Below, in pieces: positions 1 to 11,459 of a DNA stretch of 24,244 nucleotides. The stretch spans positions 1 through 24,244 of the IMG/VR virus record IMGVR_UViG_3300023210_000216; one strand, 5' to 3'. Position 1 is the first letter of the stretch. Each line of letters opens with the position of its first letter. The position numbers and the translations under genes were made by a program. This stretch comes from a virus. The notes beneath the pieces were generated by a model that saw only the letters and a program-made list of their open reading frames with translations, was not told where the DNA came from and made no database searches.

Positions 1-111
1 CTTCTTTACTTCAGACCAAGCCCAAGCCCATGATAAGTATGTGAACTTACCTTTAGCTTCTGTATGCTCATTAACATTTACTTTACTTAATTCTTTAAAT
101 ACGTTACTCAT
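1..111 (-). CDS. Single-strand annealing protein (DUF1071/Sak type), N-terminal 37 residues only
   Basis: The gene runs leftward off the window edge, so only residues 1-37 are visible. The start is fixed by AGGAG seven bases upstream of ATG at 111. The N-terminus has the pattern FKELSKVNVNEHTEAKG followed by YLSWAWAW (residues about 25-32), the hallmark opening of the DUF1071 family of phage recombinases (Sak-type annealing proteins). These coat single-stranded DNA and pair homologous strands during phage recombination and replication. The first 8 bases overlap the end of the small membrane-protein gene upstream (104-283), so the two are probably translationally coupled. It is the last visible gene of the leftward early operon. 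The family call is from recognition of the N-terminal motif; the rest of the protein is not in view. Confidence 0.78.
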   Translation of the reverse strand, partial: MSNVFKELSKVNVNEHTEAKGKFTYLSWAWAWSEVKK

Positions 112-283
112 TATCTTCTCCTAAAATTAAATATAAAACCCATCCTTGAAACAGAACCATCAAGCCTATGAGTGTCTCACCAACATCAGCTCCAAAGAAG
201 CCGTTGGCAGTTTGTAATATCAAAGCTACAGTTACCATAGCCATTGAGAACATTACTATAAAGTTGTCTGTAATCTTAATCAT
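104..283 (-). CDS. Small two-helix membrane protein, 59 aa
   Basis: This gene begins at ATG 283 and ends with TAA at 104. The product is 59 residues with two hydrophobic stretches, about residues 8-24 (FIVMFSMAMVTVALILQ) and 37-54 (ETLIGLMVLFQGWVLYLI), separated by a short turn and ending in an acidic tail (GEDNE). An AGGGG Shine-Dalgarno lies just upstream. It overlaps its upstream neighbour by 8 bases (ATGATTAA) and its downstream neighbour by 8 bases (ATGAGTAA), the same spacing style as the rest of the operon, which is strong support for a real gene. The size and two segments would fit a class II holin. Its place among recombination genes argues more for an early membrane protein such as a host-interference factor. 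Function unknown. Confidence 0.75.
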   Translation of the reverse strand: MIKITDNFIVMFSMAMVTVALILQTANGFFGADVGETLIGLMVLFQGWVLYLILGEDNE

Positions 284-581
284 TCCATCCCCTCAATTCT
301 TCCTTAACAGTTTCTTGCAGGCTGTGTCGTTTCTTATACTTATCGCCCCGTAACAACGGGTTCGTTTCTTGCAGCTTACGCCTAACTCTTGTAATGCTTT
401 CTGGTGTTGATAGCTGACCAAGATGTAAACTGACTAAAAACGCAATATAACCATCATCATCTAATGACTTTAATGCGTATTCATCACGCCAAACTTCAGC
501 TAATAACACGTTGTCCGAATCTCTACTGGGTATGTTTCTTTTTAAGATGGCCTCAACTATTTGTCTTTTTTCTTTTATCAT
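276..581 (-). CDS. Conserved phage hypothetical protein, 101 aa
   Basis: A 101-residue leftward protein. The N-terminal half is charged and helical; the centre reads LSTPESITRVRRKLQE (about residues 57-72), a segment I associate with small early proteins found near annealing recombinases in many phages. The C-terminus is basic and then helical (KYKKRHSLQETVKEELRG). ATG at 581 overlaps the previous stop as ATGA, behind a G-rich GGGCGGGGC stretch. It overlaps the membrane-protein gene downstream by 8 bases. The S/T-P-E-S-I-T-R-x-R-R pattern could be part of a winged-helix or DNA-binding fold, but I cannot assign a function. Confidence 0.8.
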   Translation of the reverse strand: MIKEKRQIVEAILKRNIPSRDSDNVLLAEVWRDEYALKSLDDDGYIAFLVSLHLGQLSTPESITRVRRKLQETNPLLRGDKYKKRHSLQETVKEELRGWND

Positions 582-766
582 AATAGCCCCGCCCTAGTTT
601 CTTTATACTCGTCATAACCCTGGTCTTGGTCAACTTCGATCATGTCTTGTTCAAACTCTTTTGAAGCCATCACCTTGTGGGCGTATGACATGAAGTCAGG
701 CTCTTGGTCTTGTATGTGAGCGTTATGTTCTTGCTCATCAATATCTAGGTCGCTGAAATATCCCAT
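578..766 (-). CDS. Small acidic hypothetical protein, 62 aa
   Basis: A leftward gene of unknown function. The reading frame is open further upstream (to a TTG at 793), but ATG 766 is preferred. It has GGGAG seven bases upstream and begins three bases after the preceding stop codon, removing a 26-base overlap. The product (MGYFSDLDIDEQEHNAHIQ...) is strongly acidic and rich in Asp, Glu, Gln and His, with no membrane segment and no recognised motif. It ends in ATGA overlapping the next gene. Small acidic early proteins of phages are often inhibitors or DNA mimics, but nothing in the sequence shows this here. Confidence 0.68.
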   Translation of the reverse strand: MGYFSDLDIDEQEHNAHIQDQEPDFMSYAHKVMASKEFEQDMIEVDQDQGYDEYKETRAGLL

Positions 767-767
767 C

Positions 768-1082
768 TTAAATCTCCCATCCGTATTCATCAAGAAGAAT
801 CATCCTTAAATCATTAGTAAGGTCATACTCGATAATGTTGTCGTCTGCGTCAATAAAGTCGAACAATGCCATCTCCTTCATCTTCTCAACAGACTTAACA
901 AACAAAGCGTAGGTTGAGTAAGGTGTATCACCAAGAGCATCGTCATTTAATAAGTGTTCAAACTTCTGCTTGATAGGTTCGATTGCTTCATAGAACTCTA
1001 TCTTTGCGTCCATCTTGTTTGCTTCGTAGTTCGTTTGGTAATCCTCTTCGATTTGGTAATCGGTAGTAGTCATTGTGTCCAT
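768..1082 (-). CDS. Hypothetical acidic early protein, 104 aa
   Basis: A leftward 104-residue protein starting at ATG 1082, which overlaps the upstream stop as TAATG. GGAGG lies seven bases upstream, an excellent ribosome site. A second in-frame ATG three codons in is less well placed. The protein is acidic and mostly helical by eye (QIEEDYQTNYEANKMDAK, EAIEPIKQKFEHLL), with a hydrophobic C-terminal part (LRMILLDEYGWEI). No known domain is recognised. It is the second gene of the operon driven by the promoter at 1378-1406. Confidence 0.75.
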   Translation of the reverse strand: MDTMTTTDYQIEEDYQTNYEANKMDAKIEFYEAIEPIKQKFEHLLNDDALGDTPYSTYALFVKSVEKMKEMALFDFIDADDNIIEYDLTNDLRMILLDEYGWEI

Positions 1083-1345
1083 TACGCTACCTCCATTAAA
1101 AATGTATCAATATCAACATGGTCAAAGTTTTCCAAAATAACCTCAATATCCATGCCTTTTGAAATTGTCGTGAATCTATTAAAAGCGCCATCGAAAGTTT
1201 TAAATGCCTTTCTGCCCATTTCAGTTTCTACAACAAACATATCAAATTCTTGCGATAGGAAATGTACATTCCCAGAATCCATATCCCACGCTTGAACATT
1301 CTCAATAGTTTCGTTTTTAAATGCTTGTTTGATTTCTTGTCTCAT
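1082..1345 (-). CDS. Hypothetical early protein, 87 aa, first gene behind the leftward promoter
   Basis: This 87-residue protein starts at ATG 1345, with GGAG nine bases upstream and a near-consensus sigma-70 promoter 33 bases upstream of the start. It is therefore the first gene of the leftward early message. The sequence (MRQEIKQAFKNETIENVQ..., ending VDIDTFLMEVA) is of mixed helix and strand character with no recognised domain. The repeated hydrophobic-aromatic pattern (FDMFVVETEMGRKAFKTFDGAF) suggests a small globular fold. It shares a one-base TAATG overlap with the next gene. Function unknown. Confidence 0.75.
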   Translation of the reverse strand: MRQEIKQAFKNETIENVQAWDMDSGNVHFLSQEFDMFVVETEMGRKAFKTFDGAFNRFTTISKGMDIEVILENFDHVDIDTFLMEVA

Positions 1346-1377
1346 TTTTGTATCTCCGTTTTGTTTAAAGTACCTCC

Positions 1378-1406
1378 ATTATATAGAACCTTTTATACAA
1401 TGTAAA
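1378..1406 (-). promoter_or_regulatory. Sigma-70 promoter for the leftward early operon
   Basis: Read on the minus strand: -35 TTTACA (1406-1401), a 17-base spacer and a perfect -10 TATAAT (1383-1378). The start point would fall near 1371, about 25 bases before ATG 1345. The flanks are very AT-rich. This is the best match to the host housekeeping promoter for the left arm. Confidence 0.85.
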
Positions 1407-1422
1407 GTATTTTATATAATAT

Positions 1423-1605
1423 TTATTTATACTTCATAAATATTTGCATAAGCCGCCTATCAACATAGCGCTCTTTAAGGATATTATTACCTATACGTCT
1501 TAGTTCCAATTTATGCTGCGGATGAACATTATGCTTTTCAGGATCAACAATTAATTGATTTAAAAGAACAATATCTTTATTACACCAATGTTGTTTTTGC
1601 TTCAT
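1423..1605 (-). CDS. Small basic hypothetical protein, 60 aa
   Basis: A 60-residue leftward protein rich in Lys, Arg and His (MKQKQHWCNKDIVLLNQL..., ending RRLMQIFMKYK), with predicted charge strongly positive. Its ATG overlaps the TGA of an 8-codon reading frame (MSKIKVKK) that continues from a gene end duplicated around HNH A. A weak AAAGG lies upstream. It sits between the homing endonuclease HNH A and the leftward promoter, so it is probably read by a transcript starting further right. No domain recognised; the basic charge would fit nucleic-acid binding, which is only a guess. Confidence 0.55.
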   Translation of the reverse strand: MKQKQHWCNKDIVLLNQLIVDPEKHNVHPQHKLELRRIGNNILKERYVDRRLMQIFMKYK

Positions 1606-1612
1606 TTCTTTA

Positions 1613-1645
1613 CCTTTATTTTAGACATAGCAAGCCCACTTCTAC
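1613..1645. repeat. Direct repeat, left copy, flanking HNH A
   Basis: This 33-bp stretch matches 2110-2142 at 28 of 33 positions and in the same orientation. The pair brackets HNH A: this copy includes the HNH stop codon and the other lies 12 bases before the HNH start. Read on the minus strand, this copy encodes the end CRSGLAMSKIKVKK in a frame different from HNH A. Confidence 0.75.
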
Positions 1646-2097
1646 AACCTGGGTGTGTGATACTCATTTTTAGCATTCAAATAAGCATTGTGAGCATCCT
1701 CTTCATTGTCATAACAACCTAAGTCGATCTGTTTTTGAGCTACTCTTATTCTTGCACAATATTTTTCCCTTTTTTTATGCCAATAAAAACCTTTGGCTTT
1801 TGTGTGATTCCATTGATTTTCTTGGTGGGTTACAAGTCTAAGATTTTCAATACGGTTATCATCACGAACACCGTTAATGTGGTCTATTTGTAAATTCTCA
1901 TCAATTCCACCGTTGAACATAATCCAAATCATTCGATGTGCTAGTTGAGGTTTATTATTAATACTCACCATAATATAACCATCATGATGAAGATAGCCTG
2001 CAACATCACCAATCGCTACACAGTTCGCTGTTTTAACTTTACGAATCAACTTGCCTTTCATGTAGCCGAAAAGTTTATTTAGTAGATCTTTATTCAT
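1642..2097 (-). CDS. HNH homing endonuclease with AP2-like DNA-binding tail (HNH A), 151 aa
   Basis: Free-standing homing endonuclease. The N-terminal part (1-50) precedes an HNH (HNH_3-type) core: H54-R-M-I-W-I, then I-D72-H73-I-N75-G76, N81 and N85-L86-R-L-V. The C-terminal segment (about 103-146, G-F-Y-W through LNAKNEYH) resembles the AP2 fold that gives such enzymes DNA specificity. Length and layout match the family. It is a close paralogue of HNH B (3966-4424, opposite strand): about 60% of the first 90 residues are identical with no gap. All HNH residues named are present, so it looks active. It is flanked by 33-bp direct repeats (1613-1645 and 2110-2142). No strong ribosome site is seen; AAAGGGATAAACAAAAC precedes ATG 2097. 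Confidence 0.92.
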   Translation of the reverse strand: MNKDLLNKLFGYMKGKLIRKVKTANCVAIGDVAGYLHHDGYIMVSINNKPQLAHRMIWIMFNGGIDENLQIDHINGVRDDNRIENLRLVTHQENQWNHTKAKGFYWHKKREKYCARIRVAQKQIDLGCYDNEEDAHNAYLNAKNEYHTPRL

Positions 2098-2104
2098 GTT
2101 TTGT

Positions 2105-2261
2105 TTATCCCTTTATTTTAGATACAGCTACCCCACATCTACTCTTGTGGTAAAGCGCCCATTGTTGGGTTAAGCCACCACATAAACCATAGTCACGGTC
2201 TAAGAGTATTAGTTATTGAGCCTAAGATGCTTGGTCTTAAACCCTCTATCTTCTTGGTCAT
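2105..2261 (-). pseudogene. Possible frameshifted small gene upstream of HNH A
   Basis: Two minus-strand frames look like pieces of one gene. The first starts at ATG 2261 (MTKKIEGLRPSILGSITN) and stops at 2193. The second, shifted, frame reads DYGLCGGLTQQWALYHKSRC and ends SKIKG at 2105. The second piece ends in the same C-G/S-G-x-A-x-SKIK pattern that reappears beyond HNH A near 1615-1650, so it may be the 3' end of the gene that HNH A invaded. The start overlaps the stop of another weak 60-codon frame (2258-2440). I do not recognise the protein. It could instead be non-coding. Confidence 0.3.
2110..2142. repeat. Direct repeat, right copy, flanking HNH A
   Basis: Partner of 1613-1645, with 28 of 33 positions identical and the same orientation. 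The best-conserved part is CCTTTATTTTAGA, plus CCCAC and TCTAC at the right end. It ends the coding frame ...CGVAVSKIKG on the minus strand. Confidence 0.75.
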
Positions 2262-2432
2262 TTCATTCCAAGCCAACAAACTCTAACTAACAAAACCTTG
2301 AGTTCATATCGGTGGTTCTTAAAACTTACCACGGTGACCAAGTTGACAAGTGGGCAGTCATTGCTTGGATTTATATTTCTATTGCTTCTTTGAGTTAAGG
2401 TCAAATCTAAAATTAAACACCATTGCAGTGTG

Positions 2433-2460
2433 TTGACCAATATGATTACTATGATATAAT
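2433..2460 (+). promoter_or_regulatory. Strong sigma-70 promoter, rightward
   Basis: -35 TTGACC (2433-2438), 16-base spacer, perfect -10 TATAAT (2455-2460). Transcription should start near 2467. No reading frame with a ribosome site follows; a terminator follows within 65 bases, so the product is probably a short RNA. Confidence 0.8.
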
Positions 2461-2465
2461 AGTAT

Positions 2466-2530
2466 CCAAGGTGGCTCTAACACCTAATTCTAACCCTCAA
2501 TCGATTCTAGTCTTTTGGGGGTTTTCTTTT
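2466..2530 (+). ncRNA. Candidate ~65-nt small RNA
   Basis: This is the interval between the predicted start (about 2467) and the terminator. The transcript would hold two hairpins: AGGTG/CACCT (2469-2473 with 2481-2485, 7-base loop) and the terminator stem. It contains no ATG-started frame. The arrangement recalls lambda oop RNA or a put-type antitermination leader. Existence is inferred from promoter and terminator only. Confidence 0.5.
2492..2530 (+). terminator. Rho-independent terminator
   Basis: The stem AACCCTCAA (2492-2500) pairs with TTGGGGGTT (2515-2523) over 9 bp including one T-G wobble. The loop is about 14 bases, followed by the T-rich run TTTTCTTTT (2522-2530). It works in the rightward direction; the minus strand lacks a T run. 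Confidence 0.75.
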
Positions 2531-2731
2531 GAACGTGGAATAATTATAAACTAACTTCTACTGACTGATTTAATTATTTGCACAATGTTGAGCAATCTCG
2601 TGACTTGAGCCTGTTCTTTAGGCGATTAGTTTAAGAGTTGCAAAGATATTCATTCACTAAGGTTCTACTTTTATAACACTTATCTCTATTACAACCTCAA
2701 CTCTGTTCCATGAATAAATAATAAATATTAT

Positions 2732-2762
2732 AAGTAACTGTGTGTTGTTTACTTGATATAAT
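2732..2762 (+). promoter_or_regulatory. Extended -10 promoter with inverted repeat, for the Cro-like gene
   Basis: TGATATAAT (2754-2762) is an extended -10 element; the -35 region is poor, as is usual for this class. The start point would lie at about 2767-2771, at or just before the ATG at 2771. An imperfect inverted repeat, AAGTAAC (2732-2738) and GTTTACTT (2747-2754), covers the -35 to -10 interval and is a plausible operator for the repressor encoded next to it. Confidence 0.65.
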
Positions 2763-2770
2763 GTTCACTT

Positions 2771-2971
2771 ATGATAATACAATATAACGATATTAAGAGA
2801 GAGATTAGAAAGATGGGTCTTACTCAAAAGGAAGTTGCTGCAATTCTAGGCATTACTTACCCTGCACTTTGGTCTAGGATTAAACATGGTAAGCCAGATA
2901 TTCACTTGGTTATTTATGCTTTGAGTCATTACTACAATAAAGACGATAACCTTGGAGAACGAGACCTCTAA
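2771..2971 (+). CDS. Cro/C1-type helix-turn-helix regulator, 66 aa
   Basis: Small DNA-binding protein. Residues 8-14 (IKREIRK) form the first helix. LTQKEVAAILGITYPALWSR (17-36) is a clear XRE-family helix-turn-helix with the typical T-Q-x-E-V-A-x-x-L-G-I pattern. Residues 41-55 give the following helix. There is no dimer or cleavage domain, so it is Cro-like rather than a full CI repressor. The start at 2771 is kept because it is needed for helix 1. It has no Shine-Dalgarno, and the promoter -10 ends only 8 bases upstream, pointing to a leaderless message. It is the first gene of the rightward block, as cro is in lambdoid phages, and probably acts on the inverted repeat in its own promoter. 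Confidence 0.85.
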   Translation: MIIQYNDIKREIRKMGLTQKEVAAILGITYPALWSRIKHGKPDIHLVIYALSHYYNKDDNLGERDL

Positions 2972-3111
2972 TGCTATATGACTATTCATGTAATAAATGC
3001 TTACAAAGATATACACGAAGTAACTCAATAGAACATAGAACTAAAAGTGGTAGATGTCCTTACTGTACGAGTAAAGATACTAAGCCTTCATCACAATCGG
3101 GGAAGAAATGA
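2971..3111 (+). CDS. Small zinc-ribbon protein, 46 aa
   Basis: The gene begins at ATG 2971 (TAATG overlap with the repressor gene) and ends at TGA 3111, overlapping the next gene as ATGA. The 46-residue product starts MLYDYSCNKC and carries a second pair in RCPYC. Cys7-x2-Cys10 and Cys29-x2-Cys32 make a standard zinc ribbon, similar in layout to FmdB-type regulators (Y-x-Y-x-C-x-x-C near the N-terminus). The C-terminal tail is Ser/Lys rich. Such ribbons usually bind nucleic acid or RNA polymerase; the target is unknown here. The paired overlaps and the four spaced cysteines make the gene convincing despite its size. Confidence 0.78.
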   Translation: MLYDYSCNKCLQRYTRSNSIEHRTKSGRCPYCTSKDTKPSSQSGKK

Positions 3112-3269
3112 TAGTTAAGCACACACCAGCTCAATGTAAACAAGCAATGACAGGTATCAAAGAGCTACTAGAACAGATTAGGCGTATTGATGACGAAGAC
3201 GTAAAGAAACATATTTGTGATAGTGCTATTGATATTTGTAATAACTTACTAAGAGAAGCAAAGAAATGA
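3108..3269 (+). CDS. Small helical hypothetical protein, 53 aa
   Basis: ATG 3108 overlaps the preceding TGA by 4 bases and is preceded by GGGGAAG. TGA at 3269 overlaps the next ATG by 4 bases. The 53-residue product (MIVKHTPAQCKQAMTGIKEL...) is predicted to be two amphipathic helices, about 10-28 and 30-52, with three cysteines (10, 37, 44). No domain recognised. The interlocked starts and stops are the main evidence that it is translated. Confidence 0.68.
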   Translation: MIVKHTPAQCKQAMTGIKELLEQIRRIDDEDVKKHICDSAIDICNNLLREAKK

Positions 3270-3580
3270 CTAGAAGCGAATATGACATTGTAAAAGACCT
3301 GTTTGAAGAGTGGATTAATATTTCAGAATCACGACTCAAACCTCAAAAACATGGTTCTAAACACGAGACTTTAGAAGAGTTTAATGAACAACAAGCAAAG
3401 CACAAAAAAGCGTGTGAAGAATACGACTATGAATTTGAGCCTCAAACTTATAGAATGTACAACCGCCAATATATTGAGTTTGATGGTGGGGAGATTCGTC
3501 ACCAAATGGAAATGCTACATGTTCTATTAGCAAACTATGAAGCGAAAATACTAAGAAAACGAGCAAAGGCAGGGATATGA
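3266..3580 (+). CDS. Hypothetical protein, 104 aa
   Basis: This 104-residue protein overlaps both neighbours by 4 bases. It is highly charged and largely helical: residues 1-22 (MTRSEYDIVKDLFEEWINIS) and 38-55 look like long helices, and the C-terminal third (RHQMEMLHVLLANYEAKILR) is a probable coiled coil. No conserved motif is recognised. It lies just before the VRR-NUC nuclease in the early rightward block and could be a partner of a replication or recombination protein, but the sequence does not show this. Confidence 0.75.
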   Translation: MTRSEYDIVKDLFEEWINISESRLKPQKHGSKHETLEEFNEQQAKHKKACEEYDYEFEPQTYRMYNRQYIEFDGGEIRHQMEMLHVLLANYEAKILRKRAKAGI

Positions 3581-3930
3581 ACGATCAAGAGCATCAAATT
3601 CAGAAGGCAATATGTCACTATCTAGATGTACGCAATGTCATGTATTTTGCAATTCCCAACGGTGGCAAGAGAAACTTAATCACTGCGAAGAAACTAAAGG
3701 CTGAAGGTGTAAAGGCTGGAGTGCCAGATATTTGTATTATTCATGAAGGCCAGGCATTCTTCTTAGAGGTTAAACGACCAAAGACTGTATTAGGTGGCAA
3801 AGGTAGATTAAGCCCTGCTCAGAAAGAGATGATAGGAAGACTTGAAGAGGCAGGAGGAGAAGTCAAAGTAGTGTACTCAGTGGCAGATGTTATTGAGGCT
3901 TGTATTGATTGGCAGATAAACGTACTATGA
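3577..3930 (+). CDS. VRR-NUC domain nuclease, 117 aa
   Basis: Stand-alone nuclease of the PD-(D/E)XK superfamily, VRR-NUC type. Visible motif residues are E5 in the first helix, NGGKR (28-32), G48-V-P50-D51, E64-V-K66 and the trailing SPAQKEMIGRLEEAGG (about 80-95) typical of the family. In other phages and in eukaryotic FAN1 this domain cuts branched or flapped DNA, and the short phage form is about 90-120 residues, as here. It probably resolves recombination or replication intermediates together with the NinB-like and annealing proteins. It overlaps both neighbours by 4 bases; the downstream ATGA opens the broken DUF1364 start. Confidence 0.92.
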   Translation: MNDQEHQIQKAICHYLDVRNVMYFAIPNGGKRNLITAKKLKAEGVKAGVPDICIIHEGQAFFLEVKRPKTVLGGKGRLSPAQKEMIGRLEEAGGEVKVVYSVADVIEACIDWQINVL

Positions 3931-3962
3931 GTAAGATAACTAAATCAGCGAGGGGTCAATAG
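3927..3962 (+). pseudogene. Orphaned 5' end of a DUF1364 gene (11 codons)
   Basis: ATG 3927 overlaps the VRR-NUC stop as ATGA, exactly how genes join elsewhere in this operon, but the frame reads MSKITKSARGQ and then hits TAG at 3962. The same protein start (MSKITKSARNQ) opens the intact DUF1364 gene at 4424. This is therefore the original start, cut off from its body by HNH B. Its codons may still serve as a coupled ribosome-loading site for HNH B, whose ATG lies 4 bases beyond. Confidence 0.8.
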
Positions 3963-3965
3963 GAA

Positions 3966-4424
3966 ATGACAAAAGACTTATTAAAAGAATTATTTGAATA
4001 CAAAGATGGTAATTTGATTCGTAAAGTCAGCAGAAGTAACCGTGTAAAGGTTGGCGATGTTGCAGGCTGTCTTAATGATAATGGCTATATAGTAATTAGT
4101 GTCAATGGCACTAGGTATTTTGCTCATCGTATGATTTGGATATACCATAATGGTGAAATAGATAAAGATTTATGTGTTGACCATATCAACGGAAACAAGG
4201 ATGACAATAGTATTGGCAATTTAAGACTTGTTACAAACCAAGAGAATAGTTTTAATAGACCTAATGCAAAAGGATACTATTGGAATAAGCCTACTAATAA
4301 GTTTAAAGCGGAAATAAAACTCAATGGAAAAAAGACAAGTCTTGGCAGTTATGATAACGAGAGAGAAGCGAGAAAGGCGTACCTAAATGCAAAAGAAAAA
4401 TACCACAGGATTGAATTGCACTAA
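3966..4424 (+). CDS. HNH homing endonuclease with AP2-like tail (HNH B), 152 aa
   Basis: Paralogue of HNH A, on the opposite strand. The HNH residues fall at identical positions: H54-R-M-I-W-I, D72-H73-I-N75-G76, N81, N85-L86-R-L-V. The C-terminal part (about 104-147, G-Y-Y-W through LNAKEKYH) is AP2-like. All motif residues are intact. The gene lies between two versions of the DUF1364 start codon region: it begins 4 bases after the truncated copy and its TAA overlaps the new ATG (TAATG). It is thus inserted in the target gene without destroying it. It probably cuts alleles of DUF1364 lacking the insertion, which is the usual homing behaviour; the cleavage site is not shown. Confidence 0.93.
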   Translation: MTKDLLKELFEYKDGNLIRKVSRSNRVKVGDVAGCLNDNGYIVISVNGTRYFAHRMIWIYHNGEIDKDLCVDHINGNKDDNSIGNLRLVTNQENSFNRPNAKGYYWNKPTNKFKAEIKLNGKKTSLGSYDNEREARKAYLNAKEKYHRIELH

Positions 4425-4705
4425 TGTCAAAGATAACTAAATCAGCACGAAACCAAGCATGTACTATTCGCTTAGAAGGTTGTTATGGTGGTCCTAATAA
4501 TGAAACAGTTGTCTTTGCACATTTAAACGGTGGTGGCATGGGTGGCAAGGTACTAGATATTCATGGTGCTTACTGTTGTGCTAATTGTCATGACGTTCTT
4601 GATGGTCGTAAGCAGTCTATTCACGAAAGAGAGTATTTATTATTGAGTCATTTATTCGGCATGGTTAGGACTCAAACTATCTTAGTTGAGAAGGGGTTGA
4701 TGTGA
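4424..4705 (+). CDS. DUF1364 family HNH-like nuclease, 93 aa
   Basis: Small nuclease-type protein common in lambdoid nin regions. Visible are C13 and C20 (first metal pair), the A-H33-L-N-G-G-G-M-G segment, D45-I-H47-G-A, and C52-A-N-C55-H56-D-V-L-D60-G-R, which matches the family's zinc-bound HNH-like core. Length is normal for the family, so despite HNH B inserted at its 5' end the protein is whole. Its start is a second, recoded version of MSKITKSAR; compare 3927-3962. The last 4 bases overlap the NinB-like gene. A role in recombination or DNA processing is likely from context. Confidence 0.85.
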   Translation: MSKITKSARNQACTIRLEGCYGGPNNETVVFAHLNGGGMGGKVLDIHGAYCCANCHDVLDGRKQSIHEREYLLLSHLFGMVRTQTILVEKGLM

Positions 4706-5118
4706 AGCGAGTAATTGAACGCAAGAAAGAGAAGAGACATATTATCGAATCAATGATAGTAAGTCACTTTAGTCAGTTCCCTGAAGACGAGAAGGCTATT
4801 ATTTCTATAGAGAGAGATGTATTAACTAGAAGTGGCGCTCAAAACAAATTACTGTGGATGTGGAATAAAATTATAGGTGACGAGATAGGGCATAGTAAAG
4901 ACGATATGCACGATAAGCTCGTTAGGAAACTACTAGGAACGGTTGATTCTACAGATTTAGATGGTAATATAACAAGTAGAGCAATAGAAACTAAGAAGTT
5001 AAAGGTAGCAGAGATGAAGGATTACCTAGAAGAAGTAGATAGATTTGTAGCTGAGTTTGGAATAATACTGCCAAGACCCGAAGACCTATGGTGGAAGTCT
5101 ATGGGAATTAAGGTGTGA
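4702..5118 (+). CDS. NinB-like recombination protein, 138 aa
   Basis: A 138-residue protein placed directly after DUF1364, as ninB-like genes often are. The centre reads LTRSGAQNKLLWMWNKIIGD (about 40-60), matching the R-S-x-x-Q-N-x-x-L-W core of NinB-type proteins. This is followed by a charged helix (KDDMHDKLVRKLLG), and the C-terminus carries LPRPEDLWW. Lambda NinB (Orf) binds single-stranded DNA and helps strand annealing by modulating access of recombination proteins. The family call rests on the central motif and context, so it is moderate; a similar DUF is possible. It overlaps both neighbours by 4 bases. Confidence 0.65.
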   Translation: MKRVIERKKEKRHIIESMIVSHFSQFPEDEKAIISIERDVLTRSGAQNKLLWMWNKIIGDEIGHSKDDMHDKLVRKLLGTVDSTDLDGNITSRAIETKKLKVAEMKDYLEEVDRFVAEFGIILPRPEDLWWKSMGIKV

Positions 5119-5216
5119 GTCAATTGAAAGAGATACCTGAAGACTATTGGGAAAGACAAAAGAGATTCAAGAAGTTAGCTGAGAAAGCAAGAGAAGCAAA
5201 AAAGGAAAAAAGATGA
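5115..5216 (+). CDS. Very small basic helical protein, 33 aa, GTG start
   Basis: GTG 5115 overlaps the preceding TGA (GTGA), and the frame ends in TGA at 5216, overlapping the next ATG (ATGA). The product (SQLKEIPEDYWERQKRFKKL..., ending KKEKR) is 33 residues and very rich in Lys and Arg, a single helix by eye. It fills what would otherwise be a gap in an operon without gaps, which is the main evidence. The ribosome site is weak. Function unknown. Confidence 0.55.
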   Translation: MSQLKEIPEDYWERQKRFKKLAEKAREAKKEKR

Positions 5217-5401
5217 CAGCACACAAATGGGCAGAAGTAATACACGCATTCGCTGAAGGCTACACCATCCAAAAGCTAGAGGTGTTATGTTGTGATAGAA
5301 GCGTTCAACACTGGGAAGACATAGAAGTACCTATGTTTATTGAAACAGAACAATACAGAATTAAACCTTATAACGAACAATGGGAAGAAGGCAATGAGTG
5401 A
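5213..5401 (+). CDS. Small conserved-type phage protein, 62 aa
   Basis: A 62-residue protein with the pattern MTAHKWAEVIHAFAEGYTIQ at the N-terminus and EQYRIKP near the C-terminus (about 46-52). Many phages have short proteins with this arrangement: a helix beginning H-x-x-x-I-x-A-x-A-x-G and a final Y/F-R-I-K-P. Their function is not known. It overlaps the gene before by 4 bases and the gene after by 8 bases. Confidence 0.72.
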   Translation: MTAHKWAEVIHAFAEGYTIQKLEVLCCDRSVQHWEDIEVPMFIETEQYRIKPYNEQWEEGNE

Positions 5402-5639
5402 TTTACAACAATTTCTAACAATGATGACTAAGACCATAAGTCCTGGAAATGTTAGTGCAGGCTTGAGTGGTAAGCTTTATATTGAGGGTGACAATGTAAC
5501 AACATATGTTTCTTTTTTTCAAAGAGGCATGAACGGCAAAGATGTGTGTGATTGTATAGACAAGACTAACCAAGAAGTTACGTTTATGTTTGATGCGCAC
5601 GATGGATCATTCAGAGGCGTAGAGGGAGCGATAGGATGA
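5394..5639 (+). CDS. Hypothetical protein, 81 aa
   Basis: The start is taken at ATG 5394, which has GAAGG close upstream and overlaps the previous stop by 8 bases. The frame is open back to a TTG at 5340, but that would give a 62-base overlap. The product (MSDLQQFLTMMTKTISPGNV...) has an N-terminal helix followed by a beta-rich part with Gly turns (SGKLYIEGDNVTTYVSFFQR). It has no recognised motif. It ends 4 bases into the small terminase gene. Confidence 0.68.
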   Translation: MSDLQQFLTMMTKTISPGNVSAGLSGKLYIEGDNVTTYVSFFQRGMNGKDVCDCIDKTNQEVTFMFDAHDGSFRGVEGAIG

Positions 5640-6037
5640 CCGATTTACCTATACTGATAGGCGCTGGATTAAGCGATAAACAGATCAAGTTCATCAATGG
5701 CTTGGTGTCTGGTTATTGCAATATCTCTAAAGCCTGTAGAACTGCTGATATACATAGATCAACGTATTATGAGTGGTTAAACACATCCGACAACTTCGCA
5801 GAGGCGGTAGATCAGGCTAAAGAAGCACTAAGAGATAGATGGGAAGATGAGATAGCCAAGCATGTATTTGAAGACCGTAACCCTGTTGTATTGAATAAGT
5901 TTGCACCCGCAGTATTAAAGGATCGTGGATATGGTGATGCTAAAGATATTAACTTAGCTGGATCAATGCAGAATGACAATGAAGTGATTGTAACCATTAT
6001 TGATGGTGGAGAAGTAGAAGAGTACGATGAAGGTTAA
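5636..6037 (+). CDS. terS: Terminase small subunit, 133 aa
   Basis: DNA-recognition subunit of the packaging motor. The N-terminal part has SDKQIKFINGLVSGYCNISK followed by ACRTADIHRSTYYEWLN (about 14-52), a helix-turn-helix of the kind seen in phage small terminases (K-Q-x-x-F-I...N-I-S-K-A-C-x-x-A-x-I-x-R-x-T-Y-Y-x-W). The middle (55-80) is helical and would form the oligomer; the C-terminus is acidic (GGEVEEYDEG) and would contact the large subunit. Position immediately before terL, overlapping it by 11 bases, confirms the assignment. The pac or cos site is not identified. Confidence 0.88.
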   Translation: MTDLPILIGAGLSDKQIKFINGLVSGYCNISKACRTADIHRSTYYEWLNTSDNFAEAVDQAKEALRDRWEDEIAKHVFEDRNPVVLNKFAPAVLKDRGYGDAKDINLAGSMQNDNEVIVTIIDGGEVEEYDEG

Positions 6038-7283
6038 TGTAGATGTAACCAGAAAGTTTGAACCTTTCCTAAAGCCACATAGATATAAGATTGCTTATGG
6101 TGGGCGTGGATCAGGTAAGTCTTGGACTATTGCATCAATGCTAGTAAAGAAAGCATGGGAAAAACCAGTAAGAATACTATGCTCTCGTGAGATACAACGA
6201 TCTATTCAAGACTCAGTGTTACAACTACTAGGTGATACTATTGAGCGCATGGGCTTAGGTGCTTACTTTGATGTACAAAAGACTCAGATACTAGGTACTA
6301 ATGGTTCAAGGTTTATCTTTGAAGGTATGCGTTCTAACATCACTAAGATTAAATCAATGGAAGGCCTGGACATAGTTTGGGTGGAAGAAGCAGAATCAGT
6401 TACTCACACATCATGGGAAACTTTGATCCCCACGCTGCGTAAGGAAGGCTCAGAGATCTGGTGTTCATTCAATCCAAACGATGAAATGGATAATACCTAC
6501 GATCGCTTTGTACTACATCCACCTAGTGATTCATACGTTGTTAAAGTAAATTACAATGACAATCCTTGGTTTCCTAAAGAGTTAGAGGCCGAGAGATTAC
6601 AGCTCAAAGAAAAGAATGAAGACTTATACAACCATGTCTGGGAAGGTGAAGTCTTATCTAATAGAGATGGATCATACTATGCTAAGTTTATTGACGATAG
6701 TCAGATCATGAACTTTGTTGTAGAGCCTAACATTCCTGTTGATACTTACTGGGATCTAGGTGTGGCAGATGCTACTTCTATATGGTTTGTTCAGCAAGTA
6801 GGTATGGAGCTACGTATTGTTCATGCGTTTGAGAATCAAGGTGAAGGACTAGGATTCTACATCAACTATCTACATGATTGGAGAGTTAAGAACCAAGCAG
6901 TGATGGGAAGACACTACGCACCACATGATATTGCAGTACGTGAACTAGGCACAGGTAAATCAAGATTAGAGACAGCACGTAAGCTAGGCATTAACTTCCT
7001 TGTAGTACCAAGACTATCAGTTGAAGATGGCATCCATGCTGCTAGAGCTATACTACCTAAGTGTTATTTTGAGAAGACAGGCACTAAAGATGGCCTTAAT
7101 GCTCTTAGACGATACCGCAAAGAGTTTGATGAGAAGAAGGGTGTGTACAAACCACATCCATTACATGACTGGAGTTCACATTTCGCAGATGCGTTTAGAT
7201 ACTTTGCTATTGCCTTTAGAGAGAATAGACCAGAAGCAGGTAAGAGACAACCTATGGCAAATACATCGTGGTTGAACTCGTAG
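6027..7283 (+). CDS. terL: Terminase large subunit, 418 aa
   Basis: ATP-driven DNA packaging motor and nuclease, Terminase_3/PBSX type. The ATPase half shows Walker A G25-G-R-G-S-G-K31-S32, Walker B with catalytic acids (IVWVEEAE, 116-123), and the coupling segment C-S-F-N-P-N (about 146-151). The nuclease half shows W-D243-L-G-V-A-D and, near the C-terminus, D381-W-S-S-H-F-A-D388-A-F-R-Y, the usual metal-binding aspartates of the RNase H-like fold. Length is typical. It is complete and without anomalies. It overlaps terS by 11 bases and the next gene by 16 bases. Confidence 0.97.
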   Translation: MKVNVDVTRKFEPFLKPHRYKIAYGGRGSGKSWTIASMLVKKAWEKPVRILCSREIQRSIQDSVLQLLGDTIERMGLGAYFDVQKTQILGTNGSRFIFEGMRSNITKIKSMEGLDIVWVEEAESVTHTSWETLIPTLRKEGSEIWCSFNPNDEMDNTYDRFVLHPPSDSYVVKVNYNDNPWFPKELEAERLQLKEKNEDLYNHVWEGEVLSNRDGSYYAKFIDDSQIMNFVVEPNIPVDTYWDLGVADATSIWFVQQVGMELRIVHAFENQGEGLGFYINYLHDWRVKNQAVMGRHYAPHDIAVRELGTGKSRLETARKLGINFLVVPRLSVEDGIHAARAILPKCYFEKTGTKDGLNALRRYRKEFDEKKGVYKPHPLHDWSSHFADAFRYFAIAFRENRPEAGKRQPMANTSWLNS

Positions 7284-7705
7284 AAAATGAAATAGACTGG
7301 TTCGTGTGTTTCGTGGATGGTGGGCGATGGCATATATGGGATCTATTCACATCAAAGGGTTTCAGACATTGCTTTGCGTTTCGTTATGATGGATTCAACT
7401 GGATATTAGTAGATCCACTTGGATCATGGCTAGAAGTTCAGGTTATGCCATACACTCATGAGGATAATGTACCAGAAATGATGCTAGAATTAGGCCATAC
7501 GGTGCTATATGTAAGGAAAAGTAGAGAGAATAAATTTATTTTCCGCGGAGTCATGACTTGTGTTAATATAATCAAGCATCTAATAGGGGTTAGAGCCTTT
7601 TGGATCGTAACACCTAAGAAATTGTATAACTATTTACGGAGAGAAAACCATGGGATTCCTATCACCATCAGCACCAGGACCGAGCGAGTCACAATTGAAA
7701 GCTGA
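7268..7705 (+). CDS. Possible permuted NlpC/P60-like (papain-fold) protein, about 145 aa
   Basis: The start is uncertain: GTG 7268 lies inside the end of terL and has no good ribosome site. The protein has WFVCFVDGGRWHIWDL, then G-F-R-H34-C-F-A-F-R-Y-D-G, W-I-L-V-D49-P, and later M-T-C98-V-N-I-I-K-H-L-I-G, ending in TPKKLYNYLRR. A His followed by an Asp and then a Cys at the head of a helix is the order expected of circularly permuted NlpC/P60 enzymes, some of which are known in viruses; related short proteins sit beside terL in other podoviruses. It could be a cell-wall or thioester-cleaving enzyme. The last 56 bases overlap the next gene in another frame. Confidence 0.6.
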   Translation: MVELVENEIDWFVCFVDGGRWHIWDLFTSKGFRHCFAFRYDGFNWILVDPLGSWLEVQVMPYTHEDNVPEMMLELGHTVLYVRKSRENKFIFRGVMTCVNIIKHLIGVRAFWIVTPKKLYNYLRRENHGIPITISTRTERVTIES

Positions 7706-7844
7706 AGAGCAAAGAGATCGTGAGACTAGAAAAGAAGAATTTGCAGCAAAGAAAAGACAATCAGCAGGCTTCAGACGTAGAATGGGTAGATCACTACTTA
7801 TTTCAGGCGATGAAAAGGGTGTAAAGTCAACGACACTGGGGTAA
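7650..7844 (+). CDS. Small basic head-module protein, 64 aa
   Basis: ATG 7650 has GGAGAG six bases upstream. The protein starts MGFLSPSAPGPSESQLKAEE, has a highly charged helix (EEQRDRETRKEEFAAKKRQS), and ends with RRRMGRSLLISGDEKGVKST. Short proteins of this pattern (M-G-F-L at the start, a charged helix, R-x-x-L-I-x-x-G-x-x-G near the end) commonly lie between terL and the portal in BPP-1-like podoviruses; their function is not established. It overlaps the previous gene by 56 bases, and only three bases separate it from the portal gene. Confidence 0.75.
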   Translation: MGFLSPSAPGPSESQLKAEEQRDRETRKEEFAAKKRQSAGFRRRMGRSLLISGDEKGVKSTTLG

Positions 7845-7847
7845 ACA

Positions 7848-9407
7848 ATGCCAAGCTATAGCAAGAGCAACCAAGCAGTAGGCTCTATCATTAAAAGATA
7901 CGAGACTGCAAAAGCACATAGAGGTTCGTGGGAGTCACACTGGAAAGAGTGTTACGAATATGCACTGCCACAACGTGAGGTGTTCAATCAACATGCCTCT
8001 GGTGCTAAAAAGAATACAAGAATCTATGACTCTACAGCATTAATTGCTACTCAGAGATTTGCATCAAGACTACAGTCAACACTAGTACCACCTTTTAAGA
8101 AGTGGGCGAAGTTGGCAGCAGGTACTGCAGTTCCTAAAGAACAACAGACTAAGATTGATGCTCAACTAGAGAAGGAAACAGATACTTTATTCTCGTATAT
8201 CAACAATTCCAACTTAGCTACAGAAGCTAATGAGGCATTCCTTGATCTTGCTGTAGGTACAGGCGCATTACTATTAGAAGAAGGTGAAGGTGAGGATCTA
8301 TTAAGATTCAAGGCCGTACCTTTGAAACAACTTATTATCGAAGATGGCCCAAGTGGTACAGTCGAGAACGTATTTAGAGATCACTCAGTAGCAGCACGAG
8401 ACATTGAGCGTATCTGGCCTAAAGGTAAAGCATCAGAAGCAGTACATAAAATGATGCAAGAGAAGCCAGATGAGTTAGTTCACATTATTGAAACTACTAT
8501 CTGGGATGACAAAGAGAAGCAATATACATTCTGTGTAATTGAGTCAGCTACTAAGCACGTTGTATTTGAAGATTACTTTGAGCAGAGTCCTTGGATTGTG
8601 TTCAGATGGTCTAAGGTAGCAGGCGAGCGTTACGGTCGTGGTCCTATCATGACAGCATTACCAGACATTAAGACAGCTAATGAAGTTGTTAAGTTTGTAC
8701 TGAAGAATGCCGAGAAAGAAATTGCAGGTGTATATACAGCAGTAGATGATGGCGTATTAAACCCATGGACTATCAGTGTAGCACCAGGTGCGATTGTACC
8801 AGTTGGTCAGCAAGGCTCATTACAGCCGTTAGTATCAGGTGGCAACTTCAACGTATCAGAGTTAATCCTTGGTGATTTAAGAGACTCTATTCGTAAAGCT
8901 TTATATCACGATCAGTTAGGTGCAGTAACAGGCCCAACTAAGTCAGCAACTGAGATCAGTATTAGACAACAAGAGTTAATGTCAGACATCGGTTCATCAT
9001 TTGGTAGATTACAGATTGAGTTTATTAATAAGCTAATTAAACGAGCTTACTACATCCTAGAACGCAATAAGAAAGTAGCACCTATTAAGGTAGGTGGTCA
9101 AGTCGTAGAGATTAAAGTTATTTCACCACTTGCTCAACAGCAAGACATGGATGAAGTTAATAAGCTTGCACAGTTTGTACAGTATGCAGGCATGGTTGGT
9201 CCAGAGGCAATGCAGATCGGACTAGATCTAGAAGCATTCCCTGAGCATATCGCTAAACTATTGGGTGTTGATAAGTCATTAATTAGAGATGAAGAAGCAA
9301 GAGCTGAGATAAAGCAGCAGATGCAGCAAGCACAACAGCAGCAACAGATGGCAGAAGCAGCAATGCAAAACCCTGAAGCAGCACAACAACTTGTAGAGGG
9401 TCAATGA
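7848..9407 (+). CDS. Head-tail connector (portal) protein, 519 aa
   Basis: Portal of the T7/BPP-1 head-tail connector family (Head-tail_con). The N-terminus reads IIKRYETAKAHRGSWESHWK and ECYEYALPQ, then STALIATQRFASRLQSTLVP (about 60-82), all characteristic of this family. The centre has R-W-S-K-V-A-G-E-R-Y-G-R-G-P (about 256-269). The C-terminus is a Gln/Met/Ala-rich tail (from about 485), typical of connector barrel extensions. It forms the dodecameric ring at one capsid vertex through which DNA is pumped and the tail attaches. Ribosome site GGGGTAAACA precedes ATG 7848; the stop overlaps the next gene by 4 bases. Confidence 0.95.
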   Translation: MPSYSKSNQAVGSIIKRYETAKAHRGSWESHWKECYEYALPQREVFNQHASGAKKNTRIYDSTALIATQRFASRLQSTLVPPFKKWAKLAAGTAVPKEQQTKIDAQLEKETDTLFSYINNSNLATEANEAFLDLAVGTGALLLEEGEGEDLLRFKAVPLKQLIIEDGPSGTVENVFRDHSVAARDIERIWPKGKASEAVHKMMQEKPDELVHIIETTIWDDKEKQYTFCVIESATKHVVFEDYFEQSPWIVFRWSKVAGERYGRGPIMTALPDIKTANEVVKFVLKNAEKEIAGVYTAVDDGVLNPWTISVAPGAIVPVGQQGSLQPLVSGGNFNVSELILGDLRDSIRKALYHDQLGAVTGPTKSATEISIRQQELMSDIGSSFGRLQIEFINKLIKRAYYILERNKKVAPIKVGGQVVEIKVISPLAQQQDMDEVNKLAQFVQYAGMVGPEAMQIGLDLEAFPEHIAKLLGVDKSLIRDEEARAEIKQQMQQAQQQQQMAEAAMQNPEAAQQLVEGQ

Positions 9408-9640
9408 TAGAGAGTCAAAGAGATTTCGATGCGATGATCGCAAAGCTATTCAAATCAAAGGACGGTAAGAAGGTTCTTGAGTGGCTTGAAGATCGTTACA
9501 TCAAAGCAGCAGTGTGTACACCTGGCCAAGTGGAAGGTACAGGATACTATCGAGAGGGTCAAAATAGTGTGGTACGGATGTTTAAGTCCTGCATTATGAG
9601 ACAAGAAAACGGAGCTTATAACGGAGACAACAATGAGTGA
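9404..9640 (+). CDS. Bbp19-like small head-module protein, 78 aa
   Basis: A 78-residue protein between portal and scaffold. The pattern FDAMIAKLFKSKDGKKVLEW followed by LEDRYIKAAVC and Y-x-R-E-G-Q-N-S-V-V-R-M (about 49-60) matches the Bbp19 family named from Bordetella phage BPP-1, which occupies the same position in related phages. The E-G-Q/R-x-x-V motif is the best-conserved part of that family. Its role in the particle is not known. It overlaps the portal by 4 bases and the scaffold gene by 8 bases. Confidence 0.75.
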   Translation: MIESQRDFDAMIAKLFKSKDGKKVLEWLEDRYIKAAVCTPGQVEGTGYYREGQNSVVRMFKSCIMRQENGAYNGDNNE

Positions 9641-10400
9641 AGAATCATTACTAGACGAGGCAGTAGCCTCAAGTGAAGTAGCGGATACGAACGCAACTTC
9701 AGAAGCAACAACAGAAACAACAGAACCAACGATTGATGATACTGCATGGTATCTTTCAGAAGGTGTAGCAGGTGAGGGAGAAACACCAGAGTGGTTTAAG
9801 TCAGGTAAATATCAGACTGTAGAAGAACAGGCAAAGGCTTATTTAGGTTTAGAATCTAAACTAGGTTCATTTACTGGTGCGCCATCAGATGGATATGAGA
9901 CAGTTATTCCTGAAGGACTAGAGGTAGAGATTCCATCAGATGATCCACTACTAGCTAACTTCAATGACTGGGCGCAGAAAGCAGGCTTATCTCAAGATGC
10001 TCATAGTGAGTTACTTGGTGTGTATATAGAAGGCATGATGGGTTCTCAACCTGACATGGAAGCTGAGATGAAGAAGATTGGTCCAGATGCTAACCAAAGA
10101 ATCACAGATGTTGTTCAGTGGGCGAAGGGTACTTTAGATCAAGGTGAGTTTGAGACACTACAATCTTTAGCTACTACTGCTGACGGCTTCAAGTTGTTAG
10201 AAAGAATGAAGTCTTTAACAAGAGAGACACAGATTTCAGCACCTGATACAGCAAGACCTGCCAACTCAGTTACTAAAGAAGCTTTATATGATCTAATGGC
10301 GGATGAGAAGTACCAATCATCAGCAGCATTTAGAGATGAAGTTAAACAGAAGTTTGATGACTTCTTCGGTAAAGAACCTGCAAAGACAATTAGACAGTAA
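9633..10400 (+). CDS. Capsid assembly scaffold protein, 255 aa
   Basis: The protein has the composition of a scaffold: a very acidic, Glu/Thr/Ser/Ala-rich N-terminal region (residues 1-45), the motif T-P-E-W-F-K-S-G-K-Y-Q-T-V-E-E-Q-A-K-A-Y (about 52-71) found near the start of many podovirus scaffolds, and a helical C-terminus ending in a basic segment. The family guides capsid subunits into a procapsid and is then lost. It lies directly before the capsid gene, separated by a 164-base leader with its own promoter-like sequence. No anomaly seen. Confidence 0.85.
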   Translation: MSEESLLDEAVASSEVADTNATSEATTETTEPTIDDTAWYLSEGVAGEGETPEWFKSGKYQTVEEQAKAYLGLESKLGSFTGAPSDGYETVIPEGLEVEIPSDDPLLANFNDWAQKAGLSQDAHSELLGVYIEGMMGSQPDMEAEMKKIGPDANQRITDVVQWAKGTLDQGEFETLQSLATTADGFKLLERMKSLTRETQISAPDTARPANSVTKEALYDLMADEKYQSSAAFRDEVKQKFDDFFGKEPAKTIRQ

Positions 10401-10411
10401 ATAATTAATAC

Positions 10412-10437
10412 TTGACTTAACTTTAAGTTATAATCAA
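10412..10437 (+). promoter_or_regulatory. Promoter-like -10 within a dyad, upstream of the capsid gene
   Basis: A perfect TATAAT (10429-10434) lies inside an extended dyad: TTGA (10412-10415), the palindrome TAACTT-T-AAGTTA (10418-10430) and TCAA (10434-10437). TTGACT at 10412 is only 11 bases from the -10, too close for a -35 box; TAATAC at 10406-10411 is correctly spaced but weak. The site could start capsid transcription and bind a regulator, or could simply fold in RNA. Confidence 0.5.
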
Positions 10438-10440
10438 GCC

Positions 10441-10560
10441 ACAGATACCCGTTAATCGGCCTGTATGAGTAGTTTAAGCGCCTCTAAAGCGCTAGATTCG
10501 AACCCATATATGGCCACTTTGAATCGAGAAAGTAAGATAATTTTTTTATTCATAGGAGAT
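10441..10560 (+). promoter_or_regulatory. Structured 5' leader of the capsid gene
   Basis: The 164-base gap before the capsid gene is the longest non-coding stretch in the late block. It can fold as AGCGC/GCGCT (10477-10481 with 10489-10493, 7-base loop) and as GATTCGAA/TTTGAATC (10495-10502 with 10518-10525, 8 bp with one G-T). The second loop contains the palindrome CCATATATGG (10504-10513). The strong ribosome site AGGAGAT follows 4 bases before ATG 10565. I see no open frame. A stabilising or translation-enhancing leader is likely; a tRNA was considered and rejected. Confidence 0.55.
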
Positions 10561-10564
10561 TAAC

Positions 10565-11398
10565 ATGTCAGTTAATTTAAGTTCTTCGGCATCAGCACAG
10601 TTTGACGCAGAAGTAAAACATGCCTTTCAAGGCGCAGGTAAATTACGTGATACAGTACGAGTTCGTACAGGCGTAGTAGGTGATACACATAACTTCCGTA
10701 CTATGGGCAAAGGCACAGCTGCTGCTCGTGGTACTACTCAATCAGACGTTACAGCAATGGACGTTTCACATGCTAAAGTTGCATGTACTCTTGCTAACTA
10801 CGTTGCACCTGAGTACACAGACATCTTTGATGCTGCTGAAGTAAACTTTGACGAGCGTACAGAACTAGCAGGTACTATTGCTGGTGCTTTAGGTCGTAGA
10901 GTTGATCAGTTAGTATTAGATGCTCTTGAAGCTGTTACTTCACCGCCTGCTATTGCAAACGGTGGTACTAACATGACTTTGGCTAAGATTACAGAAGCTG
11001 CTTCTAAACTAAATGATGCTGGTGTTCCGATGGAAGGCCGTGTTATGGTTTGTTCTGCTGCTGCAATTGAGTCAATGATGAACAACACAACTATCACTTC
11101 ACAAGATTACAACGCACTACGTGTATTGATGTCAGGTGAAATGAACACATTCATGGGCTTCGAGTGGAAGATGATCGAAACTCGTTCTGAAGGTGGCTTA
11201 GTTGTTGCTTCTAACATCCGCTCTTGTTGGGCGTACCATAAATCAGCTGTTGGTTTAGCTGTAGGTATTGATGTTTCTACTGAAGTTAACTACGTACCTG
11301 AGAAGGTTTCTTGGTTATCACTAGGTAAAGTTAAAGCTGGTGCGGTAGTTGTTGATAAGACAGGTACAGTACAAGTAGACATTGACGAAACTGCGTAA
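10565..11398 (+). CDS. Major capsid protein, 277 aa
   Basis: Shell subunit. The sequence pattern (SASAQFDAEVKHAFQGAGKL, then R-V-R-T-G-V-V-G-D-T-H-N-F-R-T-M-G-K-G, later LANYVAPEYTDIFDAAEVNF and L-G-R-R-x-D-Q-L-V-L-D-A-L) matches the capsid family of BPP-1-like and HTVC010P-like podoviruses, a variant of the HK97 fold. Length is normal. It has its own promoter-like leader, a strong ribosome site (AGGAGAT) and a terminator immediately downstream, so it can be made in excess over its neighbours. Its codon choice leans to GCT/GTT/CGT more than neighbouring genes, as expected for the most highly made protein. Confidence 0.92.
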   Translation: MSVNLSSSASAQFDAEVKHAFQGAGKLRDTVRVRTGVVGDTHNFRTMGKGTAAARGTTQSDVTAMDVSHAKVACTLANYVAPEYTDIFDAAEVNFDERTELAGTIAGALGRRVDQLVLDALEAVTSPPAIANGGTNMTLAKITEAASKLNDAGVPMEGRVMVCSAAAIESMMNNTTITSQDYNALRVLMSGEMNTFMGFEWKMIETRSEGGLVVASNIRSCWAYHKSAVGLAVGIDVSTEVNYVPEKVSWLSLGKVKAGAVVVDKTGTVQVDIDETA

Positions 11399-11412
11399 GT
11401 TGCGTTAAGACT

Positions 11413-11437
11413 GGCCCTTTTCACGAGGGGCTTTTCT
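11413..11437 (+). terminator. Rho-independent terminator after the capsid gene
   Basis: The stem GGCCCTTT (11413-11420) pairs with GAGGGGCT (11425-11432, with wobbles) around the loop TCAC, followed by TTTCTT. It lies 15 bases after the capsid stop. Some read-through must occur, since no clear promoter precedes the tail genes. Confidence 0.8.
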
Positions 11438-11459
11438 TAAAATAATTTAGGAAGAGAAC

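Follow-up and report, generated by a model that had tools for sequence, protein, structure and literature searches.

The window, by which we mean the whole stretch of viral DNA that was analysed (24,244 bases), contains a small HNH endonuclease gene, HNH B, lying between a VRR-NUC gene and a ybcO gene, and direct reading places on its two sides two 33-base gene starts that encode the N-terminus of YbcO, one on the VRR-NUC side and the other opening ybcO itself. The features of the locus are the following:

3577..3930, plus strand: VRR-NUC gene (PF08774, E 8.1e-9), the same neighbour as in the empty locus L005
3927..3959, plus strand: left copy of the ybcO start, a mini-ORF cut off after 11 codons, ATGAGTAAGATAACTAAATCAGCGAGGGGTCAA = MSKITKSARGQ, with its stop TAG at 3960-3962
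3933..3949, plus strand: left 17-bp core, identical to the right core
3960..4456, plus strand: 497-bp mobile unit (TAGGAA spacer, HNH B and recoded start), missing as a block in L005
3966..4424, plus strand: HNH B, putative homing endonuclease of 152 aa, Pfam HNH_3 (PF13392) with E 2.7e-19, above cutoff
4424..4456, plus strand: right copy, the recoded first 11 codons of ybcO, ATGTCAAAGATAACTAAATCAGCACGAAACCAA = MSKITKSARNQ
4430..4446, plus strand: right 17-bp core, within which the hybrid alleles L008, L011 and L014 switch from left to right
4424..4705, plus strand: rebuilt ybcO, intact (PF07102 YbcO, E 5.1e-20), with the body of the empty L005

The stop TGA of the VRR-NUC gene overlaps the ATG of the left copy, the right copy overlaps the stop of HNH B (TAATG), and the junction of the 497-bp unit is ambiguous by a shared CAA. 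Between the two copies 9 of the 33 positions differ, or, in terms of codons, seven are the same, three are synonymous and one is non-synonymous. The differing positions include six of the seven consecutive bases that directly precede the CAA shared by both junctions; the change in codon 2 (AGT to TCA) is synonymous and well away from the point of insertion, as would fit ordinary divergence better than the destruction of a site. The resemblance of the left and right copies exceeds chance: a start-anchored comparison, with a null of cross-locus pairs that still includes other copies of element B, gave them a similarity score of 41, the 99th percentile being 21 (p 0.0012).

The original prediction, made from the letters alone, that HNH B would be framed by two differently coded starts of one gene (assigned there to DUF1364, which we take to be the YbcO family, PF07102) with an identical core of 17 bases, is confirmed by this reading. 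It had also regarded the ARG of the left copy as typical of the family. When IMG/VR was scanned for relatives of the YbcO protein, at least 73 ybcO loci were covered: among the matches listed, residues 9-10 read RG in 38 of 73 and RN in seven, and RNQ is found only in the four HNH-bearing and three hybrid loci.

As for the protein, an AP2 match (E 1e-5) reaches 26.2 bits against the Pfam cutoff of 33.3 bits, and the residues D72, H73, N81, N85, N94 and N97 are invariant across 12 aligned sequences. Homologues of HNH B occur in 2,994 of 50,697 phage records, each at less than 60% identity; a blastn search of window positions 3500-5200 against the phages collection gave no match, and none was found in the genome contig scan with HNH B. 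A group I intron or an intein was considered and rejected, given that the insert opens with an in-frame TAG, that the gene restarts with its own ATG, and that positions 1-6000 have no Rfam intron match; Rfam returned for these positions nothing relevant and one sub-threshold chance match, and the tRNA scan likewise gave nothing relevant.

Empty sites, carriers and hybrid alleles

The closest comparison is offered by L005, in which the neighbouring genes are as in the window, the HNH gene is absent, and an uninterrupted ybcO starts exactly as the left copy does. Here 995 of 996 bases agree on the left, and there is no mismatch over 4457-6021 (1,565 bp) on the right, the sole difference within the matching stretch, besides one base, being the block of 497 bp at 3960-4456; HNH B is thus present (window, L001) or absent (L005) at one exact site among close relatives. 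This near-isogeny is local only, with 94.3% identity over 4430-17076. The left copy also corresponds to the uninterrupted ybcO start of ten contigs, at 33/33 bases in six of them (L002-L005, L010, L024) and at 32/33, with GTG for ATG, in the other four (L006, L007, L019, L021), and the string formed by its bases 2-33 is found in 13 IMG/VR contigs, ten uninterrupted and three with HNH B.

An ORF that is methylase-like by resemblance lies between VRR-NUC and ybcO in L008, L010 and L011, and upstream of VRR-NUC in L007 (303-1061). The neighbourhood of these two genes looks like a hotspot of gene insertion.

In every element-bearing contig found, that is, in four from IMG/VR (L001/L105, L009, L012/L108 and L013), the recoded start accompanies HNH B. 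The first of these is the window's own phage type, with one mismatch in 8,264 bases. The insert (464/464) and the right copy (33/33) are identical to those of the window in L001, L009 and L013, and L012, which reaches only part of the insert, is identical over 354/354 and 33/33 bases, while the flanks of the diverged carriers are only about 70-86% identical: 102/119 bases on the left in L009 and 207/242 in L013 (L012 ends short of this flank), and 264/374, 271/374 and 260/374 on the right in L009, L013 and L012, respectively. The exact string of the right copy, ATGTCAAAGATAACTAAATCAGCACG, occurs in only four IMG/VR contigs, all of them HNH-bearing, and no HNH-free source of the recoded start ATGTCA...ACGAAACCAA appeared in the exact-match scan of IMG/VR. 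In L009 the left copy starts with GTG, as do the empty relatives L006, L007, L019 and L021, and the right copy is unchanged. The recoded start, moreover, sits on a type-1 ybcO body in the window and L001, and on a type-2 body in L009, L012 and L013.

Because the right copy is constant across backgrounds and the left one follows the local phage, the former belongs to the mobile unit and the latter to the recipient; at the level of sequence comparison, the right copy is shown to travel with HNH B and the left copy to be the start of the invaded gene itself. The element, in other words, carries a piece of its target gene, and beyond the nuclease gene the matching piece of the recipient persists as a fragment. 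Since all copies of element B are identical, they may trace back to one lineage.

These comparisons uphold the earlier idea that the invading DNA brings its own recoded gene start, which moves with HNH B as an identical 497-bp unit into different backgrounds, and that the invader preserves the host gene, ybcO remaining complete after insertion. Uninterrupted alleles matching the left copy had been anticipated, and are present in ten contigs, L005 included, but the prediction that such an allele would have a different body failed, as the nearest empty allele, that of L005, has the same one. Among the relatives compared it is excluded that the two starts come from unrelated adjacent genes, or that the uninterrupted allele does not occur. 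Neither the scar-like hybrids described next nor the recurrence with further HNH genes and targets had figured in the original prediction.

The recoded half of the start is found in seven contigs, four that bear the HNH gene and three hybrids (L008, L011, L014) without an HNH at the start of ybcO. The hybrids read xTGAGT, core and ACGAAACCAA, so that a left-copy beginning is joined within the core to a right-copy end. Downstream, L014 is identical to the HNH-bearing L012 at 3,272 of 3,273 bases; with L009 it shares 142 of 142 bases upstream and 99.2% downstream. The simplest reading of these alignments would be that the hybrids are scars of the loss of HNH B by recombination between the copies, with the start altered and probably immune. 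The hybrids share one body type (type-2) with L009, L012 and L013, so the N-type bases might originally belong to that body, with no loss of an HNH gene behind the hybrids; and L011 and L014 agree from the start's second base on, so that the hybrids may go back to one event. They may thus reflect an N-type allele that is native, or one event that recombination has spread.

Recurrence at other targets

The arrangement is not restricted to ybcO. In L032, which is about 99% identical on both sides to the empty L031, an HNH gene enters the VRR-NUC gene after its first 16 nt and is fused in frame to MKDYE, and the VRR-NUC gene restarts with MRNDEHLVQKAIAQ, its ATG being at L032 905. This restart is 5/33 bases apart from the start in L019 and 12/33 from the native start in L031, and, being nearer to the former, is probably foreign. 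The right end of L033 is the same as that of L032. When L032 433-912 and L033 815-1282 are compared by blastn, the first parts of the HNH genes do not align, but from roughly the gene's midpoint on the loci are 94% identical, a pattern that suggests recombination inside the nuclease gene of these contigs.

Two further cases rest on diverged copies of a start, without an empty site for comparison. The HNH ORF of L166, which has one partial match of 40% in the genome contig scan, starts with MPKNKVSEWSATAS, and the next gene, of tail-collar or fibre type according to annotated relatives, restarts with MAKNKVSEYSSTAANNT, a diverged copy; in L090 the peptide METKLYR is found at the N-terminus of the HNH and again at the start of the next gene, with a synonymous Leu codon. 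A weak candidate is L129, where the HNH ORF (2480) and the downstream gene (2973) both start with MAES, with two synonymous differences. The HNH frame ends in ...NHG-stop both in L166 (2979-2986) and in L129 (2973-2980), the stop being made by the ATGGCTAA or ATGGCTGA start of the next gene, and thus the C-terminus of the HNH seems to be built on a captured gene start.

The window itself holds a second example, around the following features:

1642..2097, minus strand: HNH A, paralogue of HNH B (56% aa identity), by profile match and protein comparison
2111..2140, minus strand: leader segment, upstream copy, present only once at the corresponding position of L016, L022 and L031
1616..1645, minus strand: leader segment, downstream diverged copy, overlapping the 3′ end of HNH A and preceding the next gene

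By translated similarity alone this case is weak (1/60 shuffles in one survey, p about 0.05 in another), and it rests on the empty loci L016, L022 and L031; the viral scan with HNH A returned no relative. Beside HNH A, in the minus sense, the segment 2111-2533 comprises about 420 bases with no evident gene and no Rfam match, 83-91% identical in L016, L022 and L031, and is possibly a regulatory or structured RNA.

The generality of duplicated starts was surveyed in several ways. A survey with a cross-locus null could take 96 of 97 loci, some of which repeat one contig (L127 with L082, L131 with L085, for instance). In it L172 proved to be an artefact in which a segment was compared with itself, and L191 and L081, which exceed or approach the 99% line, were discarded as their gene starts do not match. 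The comparison of start against start covered 72 of the 87 loci with a recognised HNH ORF, and seven reach the 99% line: three copies of element B, L090, and also L171, L126 and L139, whose starts we judge to look non-homologous, like chance, and which were set aside. The shuffle test (24 entries, two with flanks too short) also flagged the copies of element B and HNH A; its scores for L081 (0/60 shuffles), L091 (2/60) and L085 (4/60), which do not compare start with start, were not accepted, and its row for L033 is an artefact of a wrong ORF. Among HNH loci of named phages, 16 testable of 18 fetched (two near-identical and two from one phage), there was no convincing duplicated start, the best prefix scores being 10-18 with no null computed, so the layout is not shared by all HNHs of this kind. 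The automated tests nevertheless underestimate, because L032 went unflagged by them and was found only against L031, and L166 falls outside the start-against-start test, its gene running off the contig. As far as these sequences go, the arrangement recurs but is confined to a minority of loci, and examples like L032 escape a comparison of each locus with itself.

Proposed mechanism and rival explanations

We consider it probable that HNH B and the 33-nt recoded start of ybcO home together as one element, which substitutes a 5′ end of its own for that of the target gene. The proposal builds on what the contig alignments show: a precise insertion of 497 bp, a nuclease and a recoded start that are constant, a left stub that derives from the recipient, and hybrid alleles. 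HNH B would cut empty ybcO alleles near the point where ...GGGGTCAA meets GCATGT..., and repair of the break, with an element-bearing phage that shares the cell as template, would install both the nuclease and the changed start. In this repair the left end of the recipient would pair with the left start fragment of the donor, and its right end with the gene body that both have in common. The product would be the recipient's own start as a stub, followed by HNH B and by the recoded start of the donor on the gene body of the recipient. The ybcO gene would be kept complete and still in its operon, and the change of six of the seven bases before the shared CAA would probably prevent recutting. The stub would remain useful as a homology arm, and ribosomes would be passed on via the overlaps of stops and starts, operon translation being maintained by the ATGA overlap between VRR-NUC and the stub, by the stop of the stub three bases before HNH B, and by the TAATG overlap between HNH B and ybcO. 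Finally, recombination within the 17-bp core could delete the HNH gene and leave an HNH-less hybrid allele that retains the altered bases.

Other explanations have been put against this one. The recoded start could be the native start of the type-2 ybcO body, with HNH B having entered just upstream by normal recombination, in which case the left stub would be an accident of uneven crossover, and L008, L011 and L014 would be native or recombinant alleles rather than scars. This would account for the type-2 body that stands right after the recoded bases in all hybrids and in L009, L012 and L013, for the identity of L011 and L014 from the second base of the start, and for a codon 2 that differs synonymously far from the junction. 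We nonetheless find it rather unlikely, for the window and L001 have the recoded start on the type-1 body, the one seen in the empty alleles, so that it moves apart from the type-2 body; no HNH-free contig of IMG/VR has codon 2 as TCA together with the right-copy bases that follow; and at VRR-NUC, in L032, a foreign-looking start is placed before the recipient's own body. Duplications are common at insertions, and the two copies do encode the same peptide save one residue, as they would after a simple duplication of the target followed by mutational drift of one copy. However, left copies equal to the local empty alleles and right copies identical across diverged backgrounds, differences clustered in six of seven adjacent bases when the copies of the 497-bp unit are otherwise unchanged, and a right start in L032 that is nearer the gene of another lineage make such an origin very improbable.

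That the upstream mini-ORF should be an unrelated leader peptide, or a match by chance, is scarcely credible. An ORF as short as this, with its end 3 nt upstream of HNH B, could couple translation, a role that is compatible with the homing-element explanation as well, but this one is the uninterrupted ybcO start of ten contigs and in L005 stands in the same place with the same genes around it; identities of 33/33 in six contigs and 32/33 in four rule out chance. The contigs are, it is true, assemblies from uncultivated metagenomes, in which two strains might be joined artificially. To this we give almost no credence, as the same junctions are found in the window, L001, L009 and L013, separate records, two of them with different flanks, the hybrids appear in three contigs, and the shared core, at only 17 bases, is judged to be below the usual assembly k-mers, which are longer.

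Relation to known elements and significance

The nearest parallels to the homing element proposed here are fungal. According to Coughlan et al. (2020; PMC7282813), the WHO elements of Torulaspora and Lachancea yeasts have FBA1 as their homing target; a resistant version takes the place of its 3′ end, and the old 3′ end of the recipient remains as a fragment that gives homology for repair. With these the phage element has in common the pairing of an endonuclease with a replacement piece of the target gene (cleavage-resistant in WHO, resistance being inferred for HNH B), a chimera of recipient and donor, and a layout of carried piece and left fragment. In contrast, the WHO nuclease as described there is of LAGLIDADG type, related to HO, with allele-specific cutting established by experiment, and its target is the 3′ end of FBA1 in yeast; the phage nuclease is of HNH_3 type (AP2-like), neither HO-related nor LAGLIDADG, its resistance is inferred, and it replaces the 5′ end of small genes (ybcO) rather than the 3′ end of FBA1. 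The mORFs reported from the mitochondria of Glomus and Allomyces (Beaudet et al., 2013; PMC3630166) carry foreign C-termini, and here also an endonuclease ORF has next to it a portion of the invaded gene in duplicate, the copies being diverged and one of foreign origin, and the hybrid gene of the mORF is transcribed; those described are, however, C-termini in fungal mitochondria with LAGLIDADG or GIY-YIG nucleases, and the phage element has N-termini and an HNH.

Among phages, Seg and Mob of T4-like phages (PMC2988022) are free-standing endonucleases that spread by break repair with co-conversion of the flanks; they are presented there with separate sites of cleavage and insertion, and no replacement piece of a target gene is described in the passages on them, whereas HNH B splits a coding start and carries it. 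The HNH endonucleases of lactococcal Skunavirus (PMC12724721) and the ICP1 nucleases at exchange boundaries (PMC10448857) are similar in being HNH or other homing nucleases at variable positions, tied to marker exclusion or gene exchange, and the relevant passages of these two sources describe no duplicated gene start. A keyword search of the phage literature, limited to titles and the beginnings of abstracts and hence no proof of absence, retrieved no phage HNH with a replacement gene start. The phage element would, in short, work like a 5′-end mirror image of WHO and the mORFs, and it is not a member of either, as nuclease family, target and replaced end all differ.

A small selfish nuclease gene of marine phages seems to break a phage gene, to bring a rewritten start, to mend the gene and to alter the cut site. 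The usual view is that introns, inteins or intergenic sites are what makes homing nucleases tolerable; in this case a free-standing nuclease inserts into a coding sequence and gives a replacement gene start in return. On balance, and by a modest degree, we favour the broader view that some phage HNH genes are natural home-and-rescue drives, in which invasion would overwrite the start of the target in cut-proof form, the old start would be reused as leader and homology arm, and loss via a short repeat would leave an immune scar, and which would have arisen for several targets (ybcO, VRR-NUC, tail-fibre-like and others). Should HNH B prove to cut the empty allele but not the recoded one, it would be the phage 5′-end counterpart of the WHO elements, with engineered home-and-rescue gene drives as its artificial analogue. 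Such a system would open to experiment the ways in which selfish genes enter protein genes when no splicing is involved, and in which immune alleles outlast a drive that has been lost. Annotators should be aware that an odd HNH N-terminus, or a short "leader" ORF in front of a phage HNH gene, can be a stub of the gene that follows.
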